From a virus, in the IMG/VR virus record IMGVR_UViG_3300033183_000299, positions 119,931-183,930 of that record: 64,000 bases of DNA; one strand, 5' to 3'. Shown piece by piece: positions 2,651-62,165 of the stretch. The position numbers and the translations under genes are program-made. The notes under the pieces are model-generated. The model ran no database searches and had not been told where the DNA came from. It was given only the letters and a program-made list of their open reading frames with translations. Positions within the stretch are counted from its first letter, which is position 1. Each line of letters starts with the position of its first letter.

Positions 2651-5260
2651 TTACAATTTGACTTGTGCATACCCGTCAGTCTTATCGATCTCAATTGTTG
2701 TATCAACAATGTCCTTGAGACTTTCTAAATGAGTGATCAGCAATACTGTTTTGAATTGAGTTTTGATCATCTGAAGTAATTGAACAAAACCTTCCATATG
2801 CTCAGCATCTAATGCCGTTGCCGGTTCATCAAGAATGAATAGTTGGCTCTTTGGTAGAGACGATACTGAGATTAGGGCAAGTCGAACAGCCATAGAAGCA
2901 ATTGTCTTTTCAGCACCAGACCCCATGGACAATGGTCGAGCATCATATTTCGGATGCTTTAGGTAGACCTCCAACTTATCTCCATCCTCAGCAAAGAACA
3001 CTTGAAAATCAACGATGGAAGAAAGAACTTTTTGGATCTCATCGTTGATGATTGGAAGCATTGATTTGATAACTTCGTATGAAATTCCATTCGCATGAGT
3101 TGCTTTTACAAAGATGTCATAAGCAATGTAATCACGCTCAGCTTCTTTGATTTGTTCAATTCTCTCATTGGCTTCCTGAATCATACGTTCAGCAGAACCT
3201 TTTTCAGACATGTACCCAAGAACCTTTTCATCGCATCGTTTGATATCGGCAATCTTCAAATCAACAGTCTTATTGATTGCTAATAAGTCTCTCTTAAGGG
3301 AGGAAAGGTTTTCATACGCTTCAATGTTTTCGTTGTAGTATGCGATATCTGAATTGAGCTTCTCGATACGATGCTCAGCTAAAGATGCTTTACCTTCAAA
3401 GTTTTCCCACTGAATACTCATGTTTCTGATTTCATCAGTTAGTTTCTTATGAGATGTTTTGCTATCTGAATATCGATTGATAATGTTGTTCAGCGCTTCT
3501 TCATCAAACAAAGAACCTTTCATTTTAAGATCCAAAAGCTTTGACTTGATGTCTTCAATCTCAATATTCATTGGAGGTACTTTGCTTTTTGCTGCTTCCG
3601 CTTCCTTTACAAACTCATTATCGCAACAATATTTACAATCCGGATCGTACTCATGACCTTTGAGCATATCTATCTTTGATTGTAAGTTATCTCTCTTACG
3701 AGTTTTGCTTTGGAGGTCTTTGGTCAACTCTTTTAATTCTGACTTGATGGTCTCTAGGTCTTTGAGTTCAAGTTCAGCCTTATTGGAAGCTTCAAGCATG
3801 CTTGGAAGAGAAGAGGTCAAATCTTCAATCTGAGAGCGTTTTGACTTAATCTTGGTAGACAATGCCTCCATTTGATTGCGAGAACTTGAGAGTGTCTTTT
3901 CGGCCTCTTTAAGAAGTGATTTGACTGAATCAATATCTATCTCTTTTTGGGATGCTGCCTCTACTTGTTCTTTGATCATCGTTTGTTCTTGTTTAAGGGT
4001 ATCTAAACGGATATTGTGTCGATCGCATAAGTCTTTTTGAACCTCGATATCTTCAAGGATCTCGGACAACTCCTCTTTCGCTCGAGACAATTTCTTATCC
4101 CAATCAGCAGATTGAAGATGTTTGATTACGCCACGCATTTCGGCAGAGTCTTGCTTTGCTAGTTTGTGCATTTGATCAAATATTTGAAGATCCAAAAACT
4201 TAGCCAGAATTTCTTTGCGTTTCGTTGATCCTTCGCTGATAAATCCAAAAGAATCGTTCTGTGCTGCTAGAGAGGTCATCATAAAGTCCTCTAATGACCC
4301 AAAAGTATCCTTGATGTTATCATCAGTTTTGTTTCGGGTATCTCCATTTTTGGACTCCGGAGTTGTTCCAAAGTTATACTTTGTAAAGTCTAGCTCTGTT
4401 TTAGCCGAGATGACTTCTCGACCTTTAGACTTTCCGGTTGTTTTTTCGAGGCTTCGAGCAATTTTATAAACATCATCGCCGACAGCGATCTCGAGCTTAC
4501 AAGAAGCTCTTTCTTGGTTTTGATTGATGATATGGACATTCTTTCTTTCTCCCTTAGATGTAGTATTAAATAGGCCAAACAAAGCAGCGTCAATAATTGA
4601 AGACTTGCCTGAATAGTTTTTACCGAAGATGCCCACAAGCCCATTTAACTTGCTGAAATCTAGAGTATTGCCTTTTCCGTAATTAAATAGGTAGTCCCAC
4701 TTCATTTTCTTAATATCCCAAACAACATTTCGAGATACGCCGTTCGATGAATCAACTTTCTTTAAATACTCTTGCGAAAGCTCAACTACGCGATCTTTGA
4801 CTGAGTCTTCAACTTCATTTGTCTCCATAAATTCACGAAGAAACTTTTCTTGATTCTTTGGGTCTCGCATGTTGATTGCCTTACCGCCATTGGCTGAAGA
4901 CACCGAAGCTGATGACTGAGAATTGTTTACAAAAGAAACCGAATGAGTCGACCACTTAACTTGGGCGTAATCGCAGGCTCTCTTTAATTTTGCTGTGGGT
5001 AAGTTATAATTACAAACCAATCGTAAACGAGCATTCTTGGGTACATCTACATTGGGTAGTGTACCATCTTGATTTAGATGCACTGTAATAAATGGTCGAG
5101 GAGATTGGAATAATCTTTTCTCGATTGAATGCTTGTCTTTGGAGTGAATATTCCAAATCAAATAACCTTTTAGGCGAGACTCTCCAAAGTTCTGTTGCAC
5201 AGTGCTGCCTGCATAAATGCAGATGCACTTCTTTTTTCTTAATTTAATTTTTTTAGCCAT
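2651..5260 (-). CDS. 46: Rad50/SbcC-like recombination ATPase (gp46-like) carrying the C-terminal part of Mre11 at its N-terminus
   Basis: This is the SMC-type ATPase subunit of the phage recombination nuclease, which processes DNA ends for recombination-dependent replication. It shows Walker A GKNYSGKS (213-220), long coiled coils (about 370-540 and 550-720), a zinc-hook motif CKYC (542-545) at their apex, an ABC signature LSMGSGAEKT near 777, Walker B LFILDEPATALD (807-818) and an H-loop LLITH near 840. Residues 12-95 do not belong to Rad50: IYAGSTVQQNFGE followed by KGYLIW is the segment that normally follows the last catalytic motif of Mre11/SbcD. The missing front of that Mre11 is the gene at 6101-6787, beyond an HNH gene. 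The start at 5260 has a GGAGGAC site lying inside the end of the HNH gene. Confidence 0.93.
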   Translation of the reverse strand: MAKKIKLRKKKCICIYAGSTVQQNFGESRLKGYLIWNIHSKDKHSIEKRLFQSPRPFITVHLNQDGTLPNVDVPKNARLRLVCNYNLPTAKLKRACDYAQVKWSTHSVSFVNNSQSSASVSSANGGKAINMRDPKNQEKFLREFMETNEVEDSVKDRVVELSQEYLKKVDSSNGVSRNVVWDIKKMKWDYLFNYGKGNTLDFSKLNGLVGIFGKNYSGKSSIIDAALFGLFNTTSKGERKNVHIINQNQERASCKLEIAVGDDVYKIARSLEKTTGKSKGREVISAKTELDFTKYNFGTTPESKNGDTRNKTDDNIKDTFGSLEDFMMTSLAAQNDSFGFISEGSTKRKEILAKFLDLQIFDQMHKLAKQDSAEMRGVIKHLQSADWDKKLSRAKEELSEILEDIEVQKDLCDRHNIRLDTLKQEQTMIKEQVEAASQKEIDIDSVKSLLKEAEKTLSSSRNQMEALSTKIKSKRSQIEDLTSSLPSMLEASNKAELELKDLETIKSELKELTKDLQSKTRKRDNLQSKIDMLKGHEYDPDCKYCCDNEFVKEAEAAKSKVPPMNIEIEDIKSKLLDLKMKGSLFDEEALNNIINRYSDSKTSHKKLTDEIRNMSIQWENFEGKASLAEHRIEKLNSDIAYYNENIEAYENLSSLKRDLLAINKTVDLKIADIKRCDEKVLGYMSEKGSAERMIQEANERIEQIKEAERDYIAYDIFVKATHANGISYEVIKSMLPIINDEIQKVLSSIVDFQVFFAEDGDKLEVYLKHPKYDARPLSMGSGAEKTIASMAVRLALISVSSLPKSQLFILDEPATALDAEHMEGFVQLLQMIKTQFKTVLLITHLESLKDIVDTTIEIDKTDGYAQVKL

Positions 5261-10579: not shown

Positions 10580-11113
10580 TTAAGTAGTTTCTCCCCATTT
10601 CTTCTTTAGGTATTCCTCTATCTTTTCTTCAACCAAATATTTGTAAGAGCTATGGACGTACAAATGATGAGTCGGACACAATGGTACAAGATTCTTAGGA
10701 TCATCATTATCGTGATTTTCATCATAATGATGGACGGCGACAATCTTATCTTCTCCGCACACTACGCACACTTTTTCGTGATGAGCCCAGCAGATGCTTC
10801 TGTAAGAATTGCCGGTGCCATAATGGTTTGGCATTATCTCTTTTATTCCCCCAATTTTTTGAGCAGCGTCTTTGCATGATCTAGAACAGAAAAACAAGCC
10901 AGATTTCGATTGTTTCTTTTTGCTGTTGTTTTTGTAAAATTCCTTCCCGCATTTTGCGCACTCAACATTTGGTTTCTTAGGCTTTATTTTTGATACCCTA
11001 TGTGCTGCTGAACATTTTCTTGTACAAAATTTTCCATTTCCCCTCTTCACTTCTCTCAATAATGCTTCAAACTCTTTGCCGCATTGTAGACATGGTTTTT
11101 TAATTGTAGTCAT
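10580..11113 (-). CDS. HNH endonuclease with two zinc fingers
   Basis: A 177-residue protein with two treble-clef-like zinc fingers, CLQCGKEF...FCTRKC (about residues 8-35) and CAKCGKEF...FCSRSC (about 52-80). The HNH nuclease core near 125-155 reads CVVCGEDK...VHHYDENHDNDDPKNLVPLCPTHH. This fits a free-standing homing endonuclease of the kind common in large phages. It has an AGGAGG site, its own upstream ACTACTTA motif and a strong terminator after it, and therefore forms a self-contained unit between the tRNA gene and the structural pair. The target cannot be deduced. Confidence 0.85.
   Translation of the reverse strand: MTTIKKPCLQCGKEFEALLREVKRGNGKFCTRKCSAAHRVSKIKPKKPNVECAKCGKEFYKNNSKKKQSKSGLFFCSRSCKDAAQKIGGIKEIMPNHYGTGNSYRSICWAHHEKVCVVCGEDKIVAVHHYDENHDNDDPKNLVPLCPTHHLYVHSSYKYLVEEKIEEYLKKKWGETT
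10581..10588 (-). promoter_or_regulatory. Motif ACTACTTA overlapping the HNH stop codon
   Basis: The last codons of the HNH gene (Thr-Thr-stop) spell ACTACTTAA. A transcript starting here would reach the UUCG terminator after roughly 60 nt. It may equally be a chance match within coding sequence. Confidence 0.3.
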
Positions 11114-12167: not shown

Positions 12168-12196
12168 AATATAACACGTTTGGATTGACTTGTCAA
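12168..12196 (-). promoter_or_regulatory. Sigma70-type early promoter for the nucleotidyltransferase
   Basis: TTGACA at the end of the primase gene, a 17-bp spacer ending ACGTGT, then TATATT on the minus strand. The predicted start lies about 15 nt before the gene's ribosome site. Confidence 0.78.
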
Positions 12197-13128
12197 ATAT
12201 TTTCTAAAAGTTTTTCAAAGAAATACATTTCATTCTTAATTGGTCTGGCTTCTTCAAGTCTTTCCTTAAACTCTTCGCTACCCATTTCTCCAACATCTGC
12301 GTCATCAATTGGGATCTTGAAAACTTCGAGATCGTATTTTAAAAGCGACTTGATGATCCATTCGGCTTTCTTCTCGGCATCTTTGTCGAGAGCCATGTAG
12401 ACCGGTGTGTCGTGGATCGCGATTGCTTGGAACAAACGTGACTTTTCTCGAAGCGTTGAGCCAAGGATTGGGATTGCGTTCTCTCCAGCTGCGATTGCGT
12501 CAAAGACACCTTCGACAAGAATGATTGGTTCGTCCCAATCAATGTTTAGTTCGTTAAAAACGATATCACGATCTGTTGGAGGGTTGAGGTACCTACGCTG
12601 ATGCCCAACATAGCTGCGAGCAATGAAATAGTTACAGTCTCCATCAGAGTCAATGGACGGGATAATGATTCGTCCTCCATAGCGGCCCTCCTTGCAATAG
12701 CCAATTTTCCATTTTAAAATCTCTCGACGACCAATACCACGAGACGATAGATAACGGAAAGCGTCCGTTGAGTCCATCGGCAGGTCTTTGTTGCATAAAG
12801 AGATAAATTCGTCGGGAAGATCGATCTTTTGTTTCTCTTCCACATTGTTTAGTTCTTTAAAAAGATCCTCGAACTCATTAAGGTCAAGGCGACCTTGTAG
12901 TTCAAGATACTTTTGTCGTTGCTGGTATGTTCCGAACTTTCTTACAATTCGGTAAATGTTTTTATGTCGTGAATCGCAGTGCCAGCAATGTGCGCCTTTC
13001 TTAAAGTTTACTGCGAATTTTTTATTTCTGTGATTGCAATAAGGGCAAGTGAAATAATATTCATCTTGCCCTTGTCTTTTTGGATAACCCAAAATTTGAG
13101 TTAGAATTTTTAATTTATCTGCTTCCAT
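12193..13128 (-). CDS. DNA primase with N-terminal zinc ribbon and TOPRIM domain
   Basis: A 311-residue primase that makes RNA primers at the replication fork. The N-terminal zinc ribbon shows CPYC (about residues 29-32) and CWHC (about 52-55). The TOPRIM core follows with IILVEGVFDAIA (the catalytic Glu, about 207) and ALDKDAEKK (the Asp pair, about 252). Between them is RIIIPSIDSDGDCNYFIARSY, typical of DnaG-like catalytic domains. No helicase domain is fused, and no helicase gene is visible in the window. The start at 13128 has an AGGAGGACAAC site, and a strong early promoter lies just upstream. A truncated copy of its N-terminus lies 0.8 kb upstream. Confidence 0.9.
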   Translation of the reverse strand: MEADKLKILTQILGYPKRQGQDEYYFTCPYCNHRNKKFAVNFKKGAHCWHCDSRHKNIYRIVRKFGTYQQRQKYLELQGRLDLNEFEDLFKELNNVEEKQKIDLPDEFISLCNKDLPMDSTDAFRYLSSRGIGRREILKWKIGYCKEGRYGGRIIIPSIDSDGDCNYFIARSYVGHQRRYLNPPTDRDIVFNELNIDWDEPIILVEGVFDAIAAGENAIPILGSTLREKSRLFQAIAIHDTPVYMALDKDAEKKAEWIIKSLLKYDLEVFKIPIDDADVGEMGSEEFKERLEEARPIKNEMYFFEKLLENI

Positions 13129-13146
13129 AGTTGTCCTCCTTTAAAT

Positions 13147-13175
13147 AACTTAACACGAAAAGAAAGACTTGTCAA
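13147..13175 (-). promoter_or_regulatory. Sigma70-type early promoter for the primase
   Basis: TTGACA, 17 bp ending TCGTGT, then TAAGTT on the minus strand. Its -10 is the weakest of the set, but the spacing and the CGTGT block are kept. Confidence 0.7.
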
Positions 13176-13182
13176 GAAGAAA

Positions 13183-13746
13183 TTAATAATTAAATCTTTC
13201 CGCTCTTTCAATCGCCCTTGTAATCGTTGTTGTGTGAACTCCAATTTCTTTCGCAATTGATCCTTTTGTTTCTCCGGAAAGCCATCTTTCTCTGAACGAT
13301 GCTTCTTGTTCGTCCGTAAATCTTTTATTTGATTTACTTATCTTTCTTCGCCACTCTTCACTCACAGGCTTTCCGTAATGTGGGTGGTTTTCATCGGATA
13401 GTTTTTCAGATAGAAGTTGCTTTACTTCTTCTGTGTGGTTCAGTCCAGCCATAGGAGAGCCGGCTACCCTGCTAATGTTGTAGATTTCTTGACCGCCGCC
13501 AAAGGCTTCGTCAAGATATTCTTGCTCTTTCGCAAGCAAATTTGCTCTTCTTACTTCTTCAATCAATACGAACTCAAATTGATCTTCGCCGTGCTTGTCG
13601 TAAGAATTTTGAAGGTGGAAGTTGGTGTGAGTTCCGCTTCTCAAGTTTGACTTGTGATGTCTCCACCTTCTCTTGATATTGTTTGAAGATCCAATGTAAA
13701 ATTTTCCATTGACCTTATTTGTTATTTTGTAAATTCCCGAGTTCAT
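13183..13746 (-). CDS. GIY-YIG homing endonuclease
   Basis: A 187-residue endonuclease. The GIY-YIG catalytic domain spans residues 1-95, with SGIYKITN...GKFYIGSS and the Arg of IKRRWRHH. It is followed by a NUMOD3-like segment (SDENHPHYGKPVSEEWRRK, about 127-145) and a C-terminal helix-turn-helix (KGSIAKEIGVHTTTITRAI). This is the layout of free-standing Seg-type or intron-type homing enzymes. It lies between an intact primase gene downstream and a truncated primase N-terminus upstream, which points to the primase as its target. Its start lies inside the end of the 55-residue gene before it (32-nt overlap). Confidence 0.9.
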   Translation of the reverse strand: MNSGIYKITNKVNGKFYIGSSNNIKRRWRHHKSNLRSGTHTNFHLQNSYDKHGEDQFEFVLIEEVRRANLLAKEQEYLDEAFGGGQEIYNISRVAGSPMAGLNHTEEVKQLLSEKLSDENHPHYGKPVSEEWRRKISKSNKRFTDEQEASFRERWLSGETKGSIAKEIGVHTTTITRAIERAERFNY

Positions 13747-13882
13747 TTTGACTATCCTCCGCTAACTTGGAGTTAATCAAATTCTCAACAAACTTTCCAA
13801 CCTTCAAACCCTTTTCTTTACAATAGTTCTTTAACTTCTCGTGGGTCTCTTCGTTGATTTTGAGATTTTTTAAATTAGACAT
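13715..13882 (-). CDS. Small ribbon-helix-helix-like protein
   Basis: A 55-residue protein, too short for usual gene callers, with a GGAG site before the ATG at 13882. The first 40 residues (MSNLKNLKINEETHEKLKNY, then CKEKGLKVGKFVENLINSKL) show one strand followed by two helices, the pattern of small ribbon-helix-helix DNA-binding proteins. It overlaps the start of the GIY-YIG gene by 32 nt and shares its upstream ACTATTTA motif, so it may be an autoregulator carried with the endonuclease. The DNA-binding role is an inference from secondary-structure pattern only. Confidence 0.6.
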   Translation of the reverse strand: MSNLKNLKINEETHEKLKNYCKEKGLKVGKFVENLINSKLAEDSQNELGNLQNNK

Positions 13883-13898
13883 GATAACTCCTTTTACT

Positions 13899-14060
13899 CT
13901 AAATAGTCTCTAAAAGATAAAAAAGGATAAAAAAAGATAAGTTCACCGACATCTTCTTTTTGTGGTGATTGCAATAAGGGCAATGATACAAATGCTCATC
14001 GCCCTTTTGATAATAAGACCCAAGTATTTGGGTTACAATTTTTCTTTTGTCCTCGATCAT
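13899..14060 (-). pseudogene. Truncated primase N-terminus (zinc-ribbon remnant)
   Basis: A 53-codon frame starting at 14060 with an AGGAGGACATT site. Its first 43 residues match the primase start: KIVTQILG and HCPYCNHHKKKMSVNL against KILTQILG and TCPYCNHRNKKFAVNF. After this point the match ends and the frame closes with a hydrophobic, unrelated tail. It keeps the first Cys pair but lacks the second, so it cannot form the full zinc ribbon and has no TOPRIM domain. Its promoter, ribosome site and start region also resemble those of the primase. It is probably a remnant left when the homing-endonuclease block entered, though it may still be translated. Confidence 0.78.
13900..13907 (-). promoter_or_regulatory. 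Candidate late-promoter motif ACTATTTA
   Basis: It overlaps the Thr-Ile-stop end of the primase remnant and lies 17 nt before the 55-residue gene, so it may drive that gene together with the GIY-YIG endonuclease. Confidence 0.45.
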
Positions 14061-14077
14061 AATGTCCTCCTGTTTAT

Positions 14078-14106
14078 AAGATAACACGTCACAGAAGGTT
14101 TGTCAA
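14078..14106 (-). promoter_or_regulatory. Sigma70-type early promoter before the primase remnant
   Basis: TTGACA, 17 bp ending ACGTGT, then TATCTT on the minus strand. It resembles the promoter of the intact primase and is probably the other copy of the same duplicated region. Confidence 0.72.
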
Positions 14107-14116
14107 GTAAAAAGTT

Positions 14117-14500
14117 TTATTTGTTTATCTCCATCATAATCTTCTCGGCTATATCTGAGACCTGAGCAGCTGGGATTCCGAGTGTGTTAGTTAAATAACC
14201 TGTAAGATCGAATCCTTCATCTTGTAGATTTTTAGCGATCTCCTTTGCTGCGAATCCGGCCCGTGAAATGGACGATATCCCAGCGTCATCTCTTAAAATT
14301 TTGGCAATTTCCATTTTCATTTGCATGTCTGGAGTGGAAAAATCTGGTGTTTCTCGTCTATCGGATGGGTGAAGATTCGGAGAGGTGTAGTCCCTTGGGT
14401 TTATATCATATTTACTTCTAAAGCGACGGTCGCCTTCGTTTATTACAGCTTCAAGCTCTTCTTTGATAATTCTTTTTAGGGCTTCTTTTGTGAGCTTCAT
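14117..14500 (-). CDS. Protein with MKLTK...IIKEEL N-terminal peptide, candidate internal head protein
   Basis: A 127-residue protein. Its first 19 residues (MKLTKEALKRIIKEELEAV) are nearly identical to those of the otherwise different protein at 15107, after which both become hydrophilic and unrelated. A shared amphipathic leader on unrelated small proteins resembles the capsid-targeting sequences of T4 internal proteins, which the prohead protease removes after I-x-E or L-x-E. IKE and INE occur here. Unlike the early genes around it, it has a candidate late-promoter motif 33 nt upstream, in line with a virion role. The function is inferred. Confidence 0.62.
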   Translation of the reverse strand: MKLTKEALKRIIKEELEAVINEGDRRFRSKYDINPRDYTSPNLHPSDRRETPDFSTPDMQMKMEIAKILRDDAGISSISRAGFAAKEIAKNLQDEGFDLTGYLTNTLGIPAAQVSDIAEKIMMEINK

Positions 14501-14525: not shown

Positions 14526-15044
14526 TTATGCTTTAAATAGTTGCATAAATTGTTCTTCGCTTACACCATCTGGGAGAAACTTAGCGATCGACTCTCCGTT
14601 TCGTAATGCTTCTCGGAACTGCGTGGCGGATAGTTCATCCTTCATTTCAAACATCGGAACTTCGATTGTGTTGAAGCGAGTTGTCTTAAAGTATTTCATG
14701 AAACGCTCTTGATAGACGGCATCCTTTGAAGAGCACCCAAGACCCATCGGCTCATTCACTCTTGTCTCGGCATAGTCATAGCAATCGCTCAAAGGATTGG
14801 TGTAAGGGCCTTTCTTGCCTTCTCTAAGGGTTGCCCTGCGGTATGTTAGTTTTGGGTGCTCAAGCAAGCCGTAGAGGTCAAGGATCGCCTCCGTTGTCTC
14901 GAGACAGAATTCGTCTCGCTCTTTTGATCCAATGTAAAGACGAACTTCTTTAACGTCGGGATTGTCGAGATAAAACTTAATGTAGTCATAGTGACCTTTG
15001 TGAGGTGGCTTAAAGCCGCCTGGGATTAAAACTGTGTATTGCAT
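14526..15044 (-). CDS. Nucleotidylyl (NMN adenylyl / cytidylyl) transferase
   Basis: A 172-residue enzyme of the HxGH nucleotidyltransferase superfamily. PGGFKPPHKGHYDYI (about residues 8-22) carries the HKGH motif, and LSATQFREAL near 143 is the ISxTxxR-like second motif. These residues transfer a nucleoside monophosphate to a phosphate acceptor, as in NMN adenylyltransferase (NAD salvage) or CTP-dependent cytidylyltransferases. The substrate cannot be fixed from sequence, but NadM/NadR-type NAD synthesis is a common phage role. It is driven by its own early promoter, with a GGAGGAC site before the ATG at 15044. Confidence 0.8.
   Translation of the reverse strand: MQYTVLIPGGFKPPHKGHYDYIKFYLDNPDVKEVRLYIGSKERDEFCLETTEAILDLYGLLEHPKLTYRRATLREGKKGPYTNPLSDCYDYAETRVNEPMGLGCSSKDAVYQERFMKYFKTTRFNTIEVPMFEMKDELSATQFREALRNGESIAKFLPDGVSEEQFMQLFKA
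14534..14541 (-). promoter_or_regulatory. Candidate late-promoter motif ACTATTTA
   Basis: It lies within the last codons of the nucleotidyltransferase gene (Gln-Leu-Phe frame), 33 nt before the MKLTK-type gene at 14500. Confidence 0.42.
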
Positions 15045-15106: not shown

Positions 15107-15364
15107 TTAATAATCACCTAAGGCATCAGCCAGGGCTTCTGCTTGGTTATAATCTCTGACTTCTTGTTCGCGAGTCTTCGGTGTTCCATCGGGTTTAGTT
15201 CTAGATGCAAGTTCTCTAATTTTAGGATGTGGATGATCGAGTAGTCGCTTTCTCTTTTCTAATGCCGCTTGTATGTCTGGGCTGATATAAGTTTTAGAGC
15301 CTTCTAAGACAGCTTCAAGCTCTTCTTTAATGATTCTTTTCAAAGATTGTTTTGTAAGTTTCAT
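15107..15364 (-). CDS. Second protein with MKLTK...IIKEEL leader, candidate internal head protein
   Basis: An 85-residue protein whose leader MKLTKQSLKRIIKEELEAV differs at only two positions from that of the 127-residue protein at 14117. The rest (HPHPKIRELASRTKPDGTPK and a C-terminal acidic helix) is unrelated to it. I recognise no enzyme motif. An AGGAG site precedes the ATG, and the motif ACTAGTTA lies 22 nt upstream. A leader peptide kept while the body differs suggests targeting or processing rather than a shared catalytic role. Confidence 0.6.
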   Translation of the reverse strand: MKLTKQSLKRIIKEELEAVLEGSKTYISPDIQAALEKRKRLLDHPHPKIRELASRTKPDGTPKTREQEVRDYNQAEALADALGDY

Positions 15365-62136: not shown

Positions 62137-62165
62137 AATGTAACACGTTGAGAACAGTTTGTCAA
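62137..62165 (-). promoter_or_regulatory. Sigma70-type early promoter for the RecB/Cas4-like nuclease
   Basis: TTGACA, 17 bp ending AACGTGT, then TACATT on the minus strand. The -35 overlaps the stop codon of the zincin gene. Confidence 0.8.

Follow-up and report, generated by a model that had tools for sequence, protein, structure and literature searches.

The stretch analysed here (the window) covers the terminal 64 kb of a virus record 184 kb long and carries, all on the minus strand and in this order of transcription, a 53-codon frame (13899-14060), a gene for a 55-residue Arc-like ribbon-helix-helix protein (13715-13882), a GIY-YIG/NUMOD3 homing endonuclease gene (13183-13746) and an intact DnaG-type primase gene (12193-13128). 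The Arc-like and GIY-YIG genes overlap by 32 nt and, in agreement with the initial annotation, they alone occupy the space between the frame and the intact primase. DNA comparison of the frame with the 5' end of the window's primase gave 71% identity over 155 nt (E=1e-12), with no second comparable match to this region elsewhere in the window, which bears out the earlier proposal that the frame is a truncated primase start; it is termed the remnant hereafter. It consists of a displaced primase 5' end (codons 1-40 plus 2 nt; 13939..14060) and a tail outside the homology, SFFILFYLLETI (13899..13938), which reads through the T-rich left end of the insert.

Upstream of the remnant lies an early-type promoter, TTGACA...TATCTT (14076..14106, minus strand), which would be that of the former primase gene. 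The resemblance of promoter and ribosome site between the two copies, to which the initial annotation had drawn attention, proved to be generic and was rejected as evidence of duplication, since TTGACA-N-GTGTTA, a strong promoter of sigma70-like type with a GGAGG-type ribosome site downstream of it, precedes six window genes (at 62165, 15092, 14106, 13175, 12196 and 7156), always on the minus strand. Another motif, ACTATTTAAAG, has one exact copy in the window, and it or close variants occur at 14541 (minus strand), upstream of an MKLT-type gene, and near 13900, upstream of the Arc-like gene; it is possibly a second promoter class. A start of ~22 residues, MKLTKEALKRIIKEELEAVL, is joined to unrelated C-terminal parts at 14117-14500 and 15107-15364 (both minus strand), and starts of this type are repeated across these phages, being found also in L006 (IMGVR_UViG_3300007541_000031; at 2929 and 4936) and L003 (3300000101_000006; at 3596 and 6633). 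Our guess is that it is perhaps a targeting or cleaved leader.

With regard to the proteins encoded, the endonuclease combines the catalytic domain (PF01541, 50.3 bits, E=2.9e-13, cut-off 22.6) and the DNA-binding module NUMOD3 (PF07460, 40 bits, E=3.7e-10, cut-off 20.4) of GIY-YIG homing endonucleases, matches the homing endonuclease family phrog_314 (E=2.3e-34) and shows a weak C-terminal HTH match (E~0.02). It is the only GIY-YIG gene in the whole 184-kb record. The 55-residue protein matches the Arc-like repressors of phrog_582 (E=7.6e-6). The primase belongs to phrog_47 (E=2.8e-41); its Pfam matches to Zn_ribbon_DnaG and Toprim were weak and below cut-off, and its predicted structure (AlphaFold mean pLDDT 82) has a DnaG-like fold with an N-terminal zinc-ribbon region, for which the best solved Foldseek matches were Aquifex DnaG (E=1e-12) and T4 primase in the primosome (E=2e-10). 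The zinc-ribbon N-terminus and the Toprim core are those of a DnaG-type phage primase, and the predicted fold is DnaG/T4 gp61-like.

No match to the region was found by megablast among cultured phages, whose nearest primases are 33% identical, and the GTDB genomes gave no more than weak partial matches to the GIY-YIG protein. Among 109 distant GIY-YIG loci scanned, a primase start directly adjoins the endonuclease only in the carriers described below and in L167, in which a 48%-identical endonuclease lies directly upstream of a B-like primase (see below for types), with no remnant and with a RuvC-like upstream neighbour; this may be a donor-type arrangement. Other candidate homing genes were also noted. 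In L159 (5329) and L161 (5260), GIY-YIG-like genes that share 40% identity with the window's (residues 3-90) lie ~0.3-0.4 kb downstream of the primase gene, a second endonuclease position, and the window itself contains an HNH endonuclease-like gene with a Cys-rich N-terminal region (10580-11113, minus strand; phrog_1271, E=5.8e-22), possibly another homing gene.

The initial annotation had proposed a search for relatives with an uninterrupted primase gene, and IMG/VR holds many such phages. We call a start as in intact primases without the endonuclease A-type, and the start of the window's intact primase B-type. In ~17 close uninserted relatives, primase residues 1-42 were 86-93% identical to the remnant, versus 50-56% (amino acids) between the same stretch and the window's intact primase, whose B-type start shares 67-81% of its amino acids with those of other hybrids. 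At the DNA level, the remnant is 95.8% identical to uninserted relatives (L007, L013 and L021) over nt 1-118, and it is placed among A-type N-termini in the tree of this part. Since the N-termini of the uninserted relatives match the remnant and not the window's intact primase, the remnant represents the original start of the resident gene, as had been suggested. By contrast, residues 44-311 of the window's primase are 84-92% identical in amino acids to those of uninserted A-type relatives. This split in identity indicates a hybrid: the comparison argues strongly that a foreign B-type start of ~47 codons, including the first Cys pair, C28/C31 (12988..13128), was fused to the resident body, which comprises the second Cys pair at the junction, the DnaG-type core and Toprim (12193..12976). 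The incoming block would then have consisted of the Arc-like gene, the GIY-YIG gene, the promoter and ~47 B-type codons, very probably without a complete primase. The search for uninterrupted relatives was thus successful, but it spoke for a hybrid instead of the import of the donor's own complete primase that the initial annotation had envisaged.

Gene order is in line with this. In uninserted L010 the primase begins ~50 nt past its upstream neighbour gene, and this synteny is general in uninserted relatives; in the window, the primase's former place is filled by the homologue of that neighbour (14526-15044), by another gene and, after these, by the remnant. As an additional observation, residues R34, N35, H50, S53 and H55 of the window's primase (12960-13030; codons 33-56) depart from conserved positions within the predicted target site, near the join, possibly as extra resistance changes or through another donor.

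The position of the break was examined by aligning the remnants with uninserted relatives and by an informative-site recombination scan with A- and B-type parents (Fisher test). In the window, DNA-level homology of the remnant to uninserted relatives, the alignment by which the break was to be defined, is lost after ...GTGAACTT at nt 122 (13939), within AACTT (nt 118-122), and the same five bases are present at the insert's left end in two further carriers, L020 (3300020185_000092) and L099 (3300025674_000062). Remnant homology ends at nt ~127 in L099 and at nt ~138-140 in L006 and L020. As for the hybrid genes, L003 switches from B- to A-type at nt 141-148, with 60 B and 0 A informative sites on the left and 24 B and 159 A on the right (p=1e-37), and switches at nt 153-158 were found in L099 (p=2e-21), L006 (p=5e-13) and L020 (p=4e-4). 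In the window the switch falls at nt 139-153 with L020 or L099 as the B-type parent (p~1e-10) and at nt 78-89 with L006, so that two of the three B-type parents agree. No switch was observed in three A-type controls. Taken together, switch points and remnant ends cluster at nt ~122-158, which would place the break between, and up to, the two zinc-binding Cys pairs, with C28/C31 from the donor and C48/C51 at or just before the junction. The earlier prediction of a cut site in the zinc-ribbon coding region of the primase is thereby favoured and narrowed. Within the inferred site, B-type DNA departs from A-type at numerous positions. A 17/20 match of the A-type site to the Arc leader was set aside, as the stretch taken for the leader contained the remnant itself.

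The arrangement is not confined to the window. A remnant, the Arc-like and GIY-YIG genes and a hybrid primase are present in L006, in L020 and in L099/L100 (L100, 3300007539_000042), and in each of these, as in the window, the gene pair has a displaced A-type N-terminus on the side away from the hybrid primase; such recurrence in DNA from several metagenomes makes an assembly artefact unlikely. L006 and L099 have additional genes between the remnant and the Arc-like gene, and left junctions differ between carriers. L003 has a hybrid primase with neither remnant nor endonuclease. In the body tree, the five distinct hybrids occupy four places, L003 with L010/L022, L099 with L107/L114, L006 with L020, and the window as sister to A-type L004 (support 92/81), and a single clade of hybrid bodies was rejected (AU p=1.6e-51). 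In the N-terminal tree, which has weak support and 45 columns, the hybrid N-termini group together and the remnants fall among A-type starts from the lineage of their respective hosts, so the two parts of one full-length gene have discordant trees. In particular, the L003 body is 99% identical (amino acids) to that of L010, and its N-terminal ~140 nt are identical to those of L006; the L099 body is 97% identical to that of uninserted L107, to whose start the L099 remnant is ~90% identical in nucleotides. From these phylogenies, the swap appears to have taken place in no fewer than three or four related phage lineages, independently of one another. Arc-like proteins are 93-100% identical (amino acids) among all carriers, and between the window and L006 dS is 0.16 for the GIY-YIG gene and 0.12 for the Arc-like gene versus 1.44 for the primase body, which indicates that the element is younger than the split of its hosts. 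The homing footprint recognised in the initial annotation is accordingly supported by relatives with and without the element.

Based on these results, the alternatives were weighed against the replacement of the gene's 5' end by the element. A donor could have supplied a complete primase, the resident gene surviving as an N-terminus only. In line with this, the window and L006 remnants differ from L007/L013 by dS of 0.05-0.23, and the primase bodies by 1.2-2.1, as if the body were foreign. However, dS is lowered towards the 5' end in intact A-type pairs as well (0.23-1.16 vs 0.67-2.96), the window body is sister to that of an A-type phage, and in L003 and L099 the switch falls within the gene, at codons 48-53, and the bodies share 97-99% identity with those of uninserted relatives. 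Judged from these alignments, import of a whole primase is already refuted for L003 and L099; the case against it is decisive there, strong as regards the window, and not as firm in L006 and L020, which have bodies lacking a close uninserted relative. Overall, we regard it as unlikely.

Somewhat less likely still is that ordinary phage recombination exchanged primase 5' ends and that the endonuclease is merely nearby. The B-type start without an endonuclease in L003, as well as the history of B-type codons 11-46, which is partly separate from that of the endonuclease, could be understood in this way. Nevertheless, the endonuclease lies exactly between remnant and hybrid in every contig that has both, and the switch points coincide with the remnant ends.

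The remnant might instead be a functional small zinc-knuckle protein kept by selection, for instance a primase regulator or decoy, as the few amino acid changes in codons 1-40 and the retained promoter and ribosome site could suggest. In comparison with intact relatives, these codons have dN of 0.010-0.065 and dS of 0.19-0.97, but such low dN is also expected under a recent insertion. Furthermore, the remnant holds a single Cys pair of the zinc site, and its tails are unrelated and differ by carrier (LFSDIHLTEMIN in L006, KRLLFTFRHFIYQETQK in L099, and an end after NGFV in L020). No second primase N-terminus without this endonuclease was found among the loci scanned. The outcome that had been named as contradicting a remnant, an independent conserved short gene, left no sign, the tails being unrelated and the occurrence restricted to the neighbourhood of the endonuclease. 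We consider a zinc-knuckle function very improbable, although the remnant may be under selection or serve as a homology arm. Finally, the phage could have duplicated its own primase start locally in tandem, with later decay of one copy and no part played by the endonuclease, as two copies of the gene start within 1 kb might suggest; this can be dismissed, as the remnant is 95.8% identical in nucleotides to other phages' primases vs 71% to the window's own.

We infer that a free-standing GIY-YIG element homes into the primase by replacing the 5' end of the gene, a reading to which we assign a probability of roughly 80% on comparative sequence evidence. When an occupied phage and a relative with an A-type primase infect the same cell, the endonuclease of the former would cut the primase gene of the latter at nt ~122-158. 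At the right end, repair would proceed through homology in the primase body, and the B-type start, the promoter, the endonuclease and the Arc-like gene would be copied; the left end would be closed by microhomology (AACTT in the window) or, alternatively, an A-type fragment already beside the element could act as the homology arm. One-sided T4 intron homing with microhomology junctions is documented (PMC2988022). The predicted product is a complete hybrid primase, by which an essential gene would be kept whole under its own promoter, with the two halves of the inferred site separated, and the supplied 5' end, which would lack the intact A-type site sequence, is expected to withstand renewed cutting. 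If endonuclease and remnant were lost later, the hybrid could be left alone, as in L003. At 3936-4150 of L003, the left part of the promoter looks A-type and the rest, starting at the ribosome site, looks B-type, as would follow from a deletion of remnant and endonuclease between repeated promoters.

The element and the B-type start have not always behaved as one unit. The window and L006 are 92-100% identical over the part running from the Arc-like gene to about primase codon 10 and 65-77% identical thereafter, and dS for B-type codons 1-46 is 0.97 vs 0.16 for the GIY-YIG gene. Because B-type starts diverge more between carriers than the endonuclease, the two were not always moved together, and further recombination has to be invoked. 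In L006 and L020, the co-converted tract may be longer.

Comparable processes are known from other systems. In Torulaspora and Lachancea yeasts, each homing of a WHO element into FBA1 exchanges the target's 3' end for a divergent, resistant one, so that the gene stays full-length but becomes a chimera whose parts have discordant trees, and the old end is turned into a far-side fragment; these nuclear elements encode an intein-derived LAGLIDADG-zinc finger enzyme whose cleavage has been shown (PMC7282813, Coughlan et al. 2020). The window similarly has a homing gene beside its target, a chimera, discordant trees and an old end displaced to the far side. It differs in being a phage, in its GIY-YIG enzyme, for which cleavage is predicted, and in the use of the 5' end with promoter and start codon; it does not belong to the WHO family proper (LAGLIDADG-zinc finger beside FBA1), but would work like a WHO element. 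In fungal mitochondria, mORFs supply a foreign gene end with an endonuclease ORF that replaces the resident end, and the native end persists beyond the insert; the hybrids, with incongruent trees, include Allomyces atp6 and Glomus atp6, atp9, cox2 and nad3, concern 3' ends and mostly LAGLIDADG enzymes, and have a GIY-YIG case in Glomus atp9 (PMC3630166). The window likewise combines an endonuclease that carries a foreign gene end, a native end beyond the insert and incongruent trees, but at the 5' end of a phage gene and not at a C-terminal end in an organelle genome.

In the T-even phages, free-standing endonucleases of the seg and mob genes cut a conserved neighbouring gene of relatives with co-conversion of flanks, and the cases described in the available text of PMC2988022 are intergenic insertions with co-conversion or split genes (mobE in nrdA, mobA in gene 60). 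The window's GIY-YIG gene is likewise free-standing and adjoins a conserved gene, its predicted target. The displaced duplicate gene end distinguishes it from the T-even cases as described there. Accordingly, the WHO elements and mORFs appear closest in process, and phage intronless homing in organism and enzyme. No published phage case of gene-end-replacing (WHO-type) homing was found in the open-access literature searched.

On balance, we lean towards the view that phages have a class of gene-end-replacing homing elements of their own, acting at the 5' end and convergent with WHO elements and mORFs. Such an element would carry the promoter, the start codon and a resistant zinc-ribbon half of an essential replication gene, and each invasion would make a chimera and leave the old start as a fossil or as the next homology arm. 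If true, a homing strategy of yeast nuclei and fungal mitochondria would extend to phages, with another enzyme family and at the opposite gene end. It would explain mosaic primases, whose N-termini and bodies can differ in history, and a precise predicted cut site follows from it. Several natural replicate invasions, together with one apparent endonuclease-free survivor, would furthermore provide material on how an essential gene can be invaded without killing its host.
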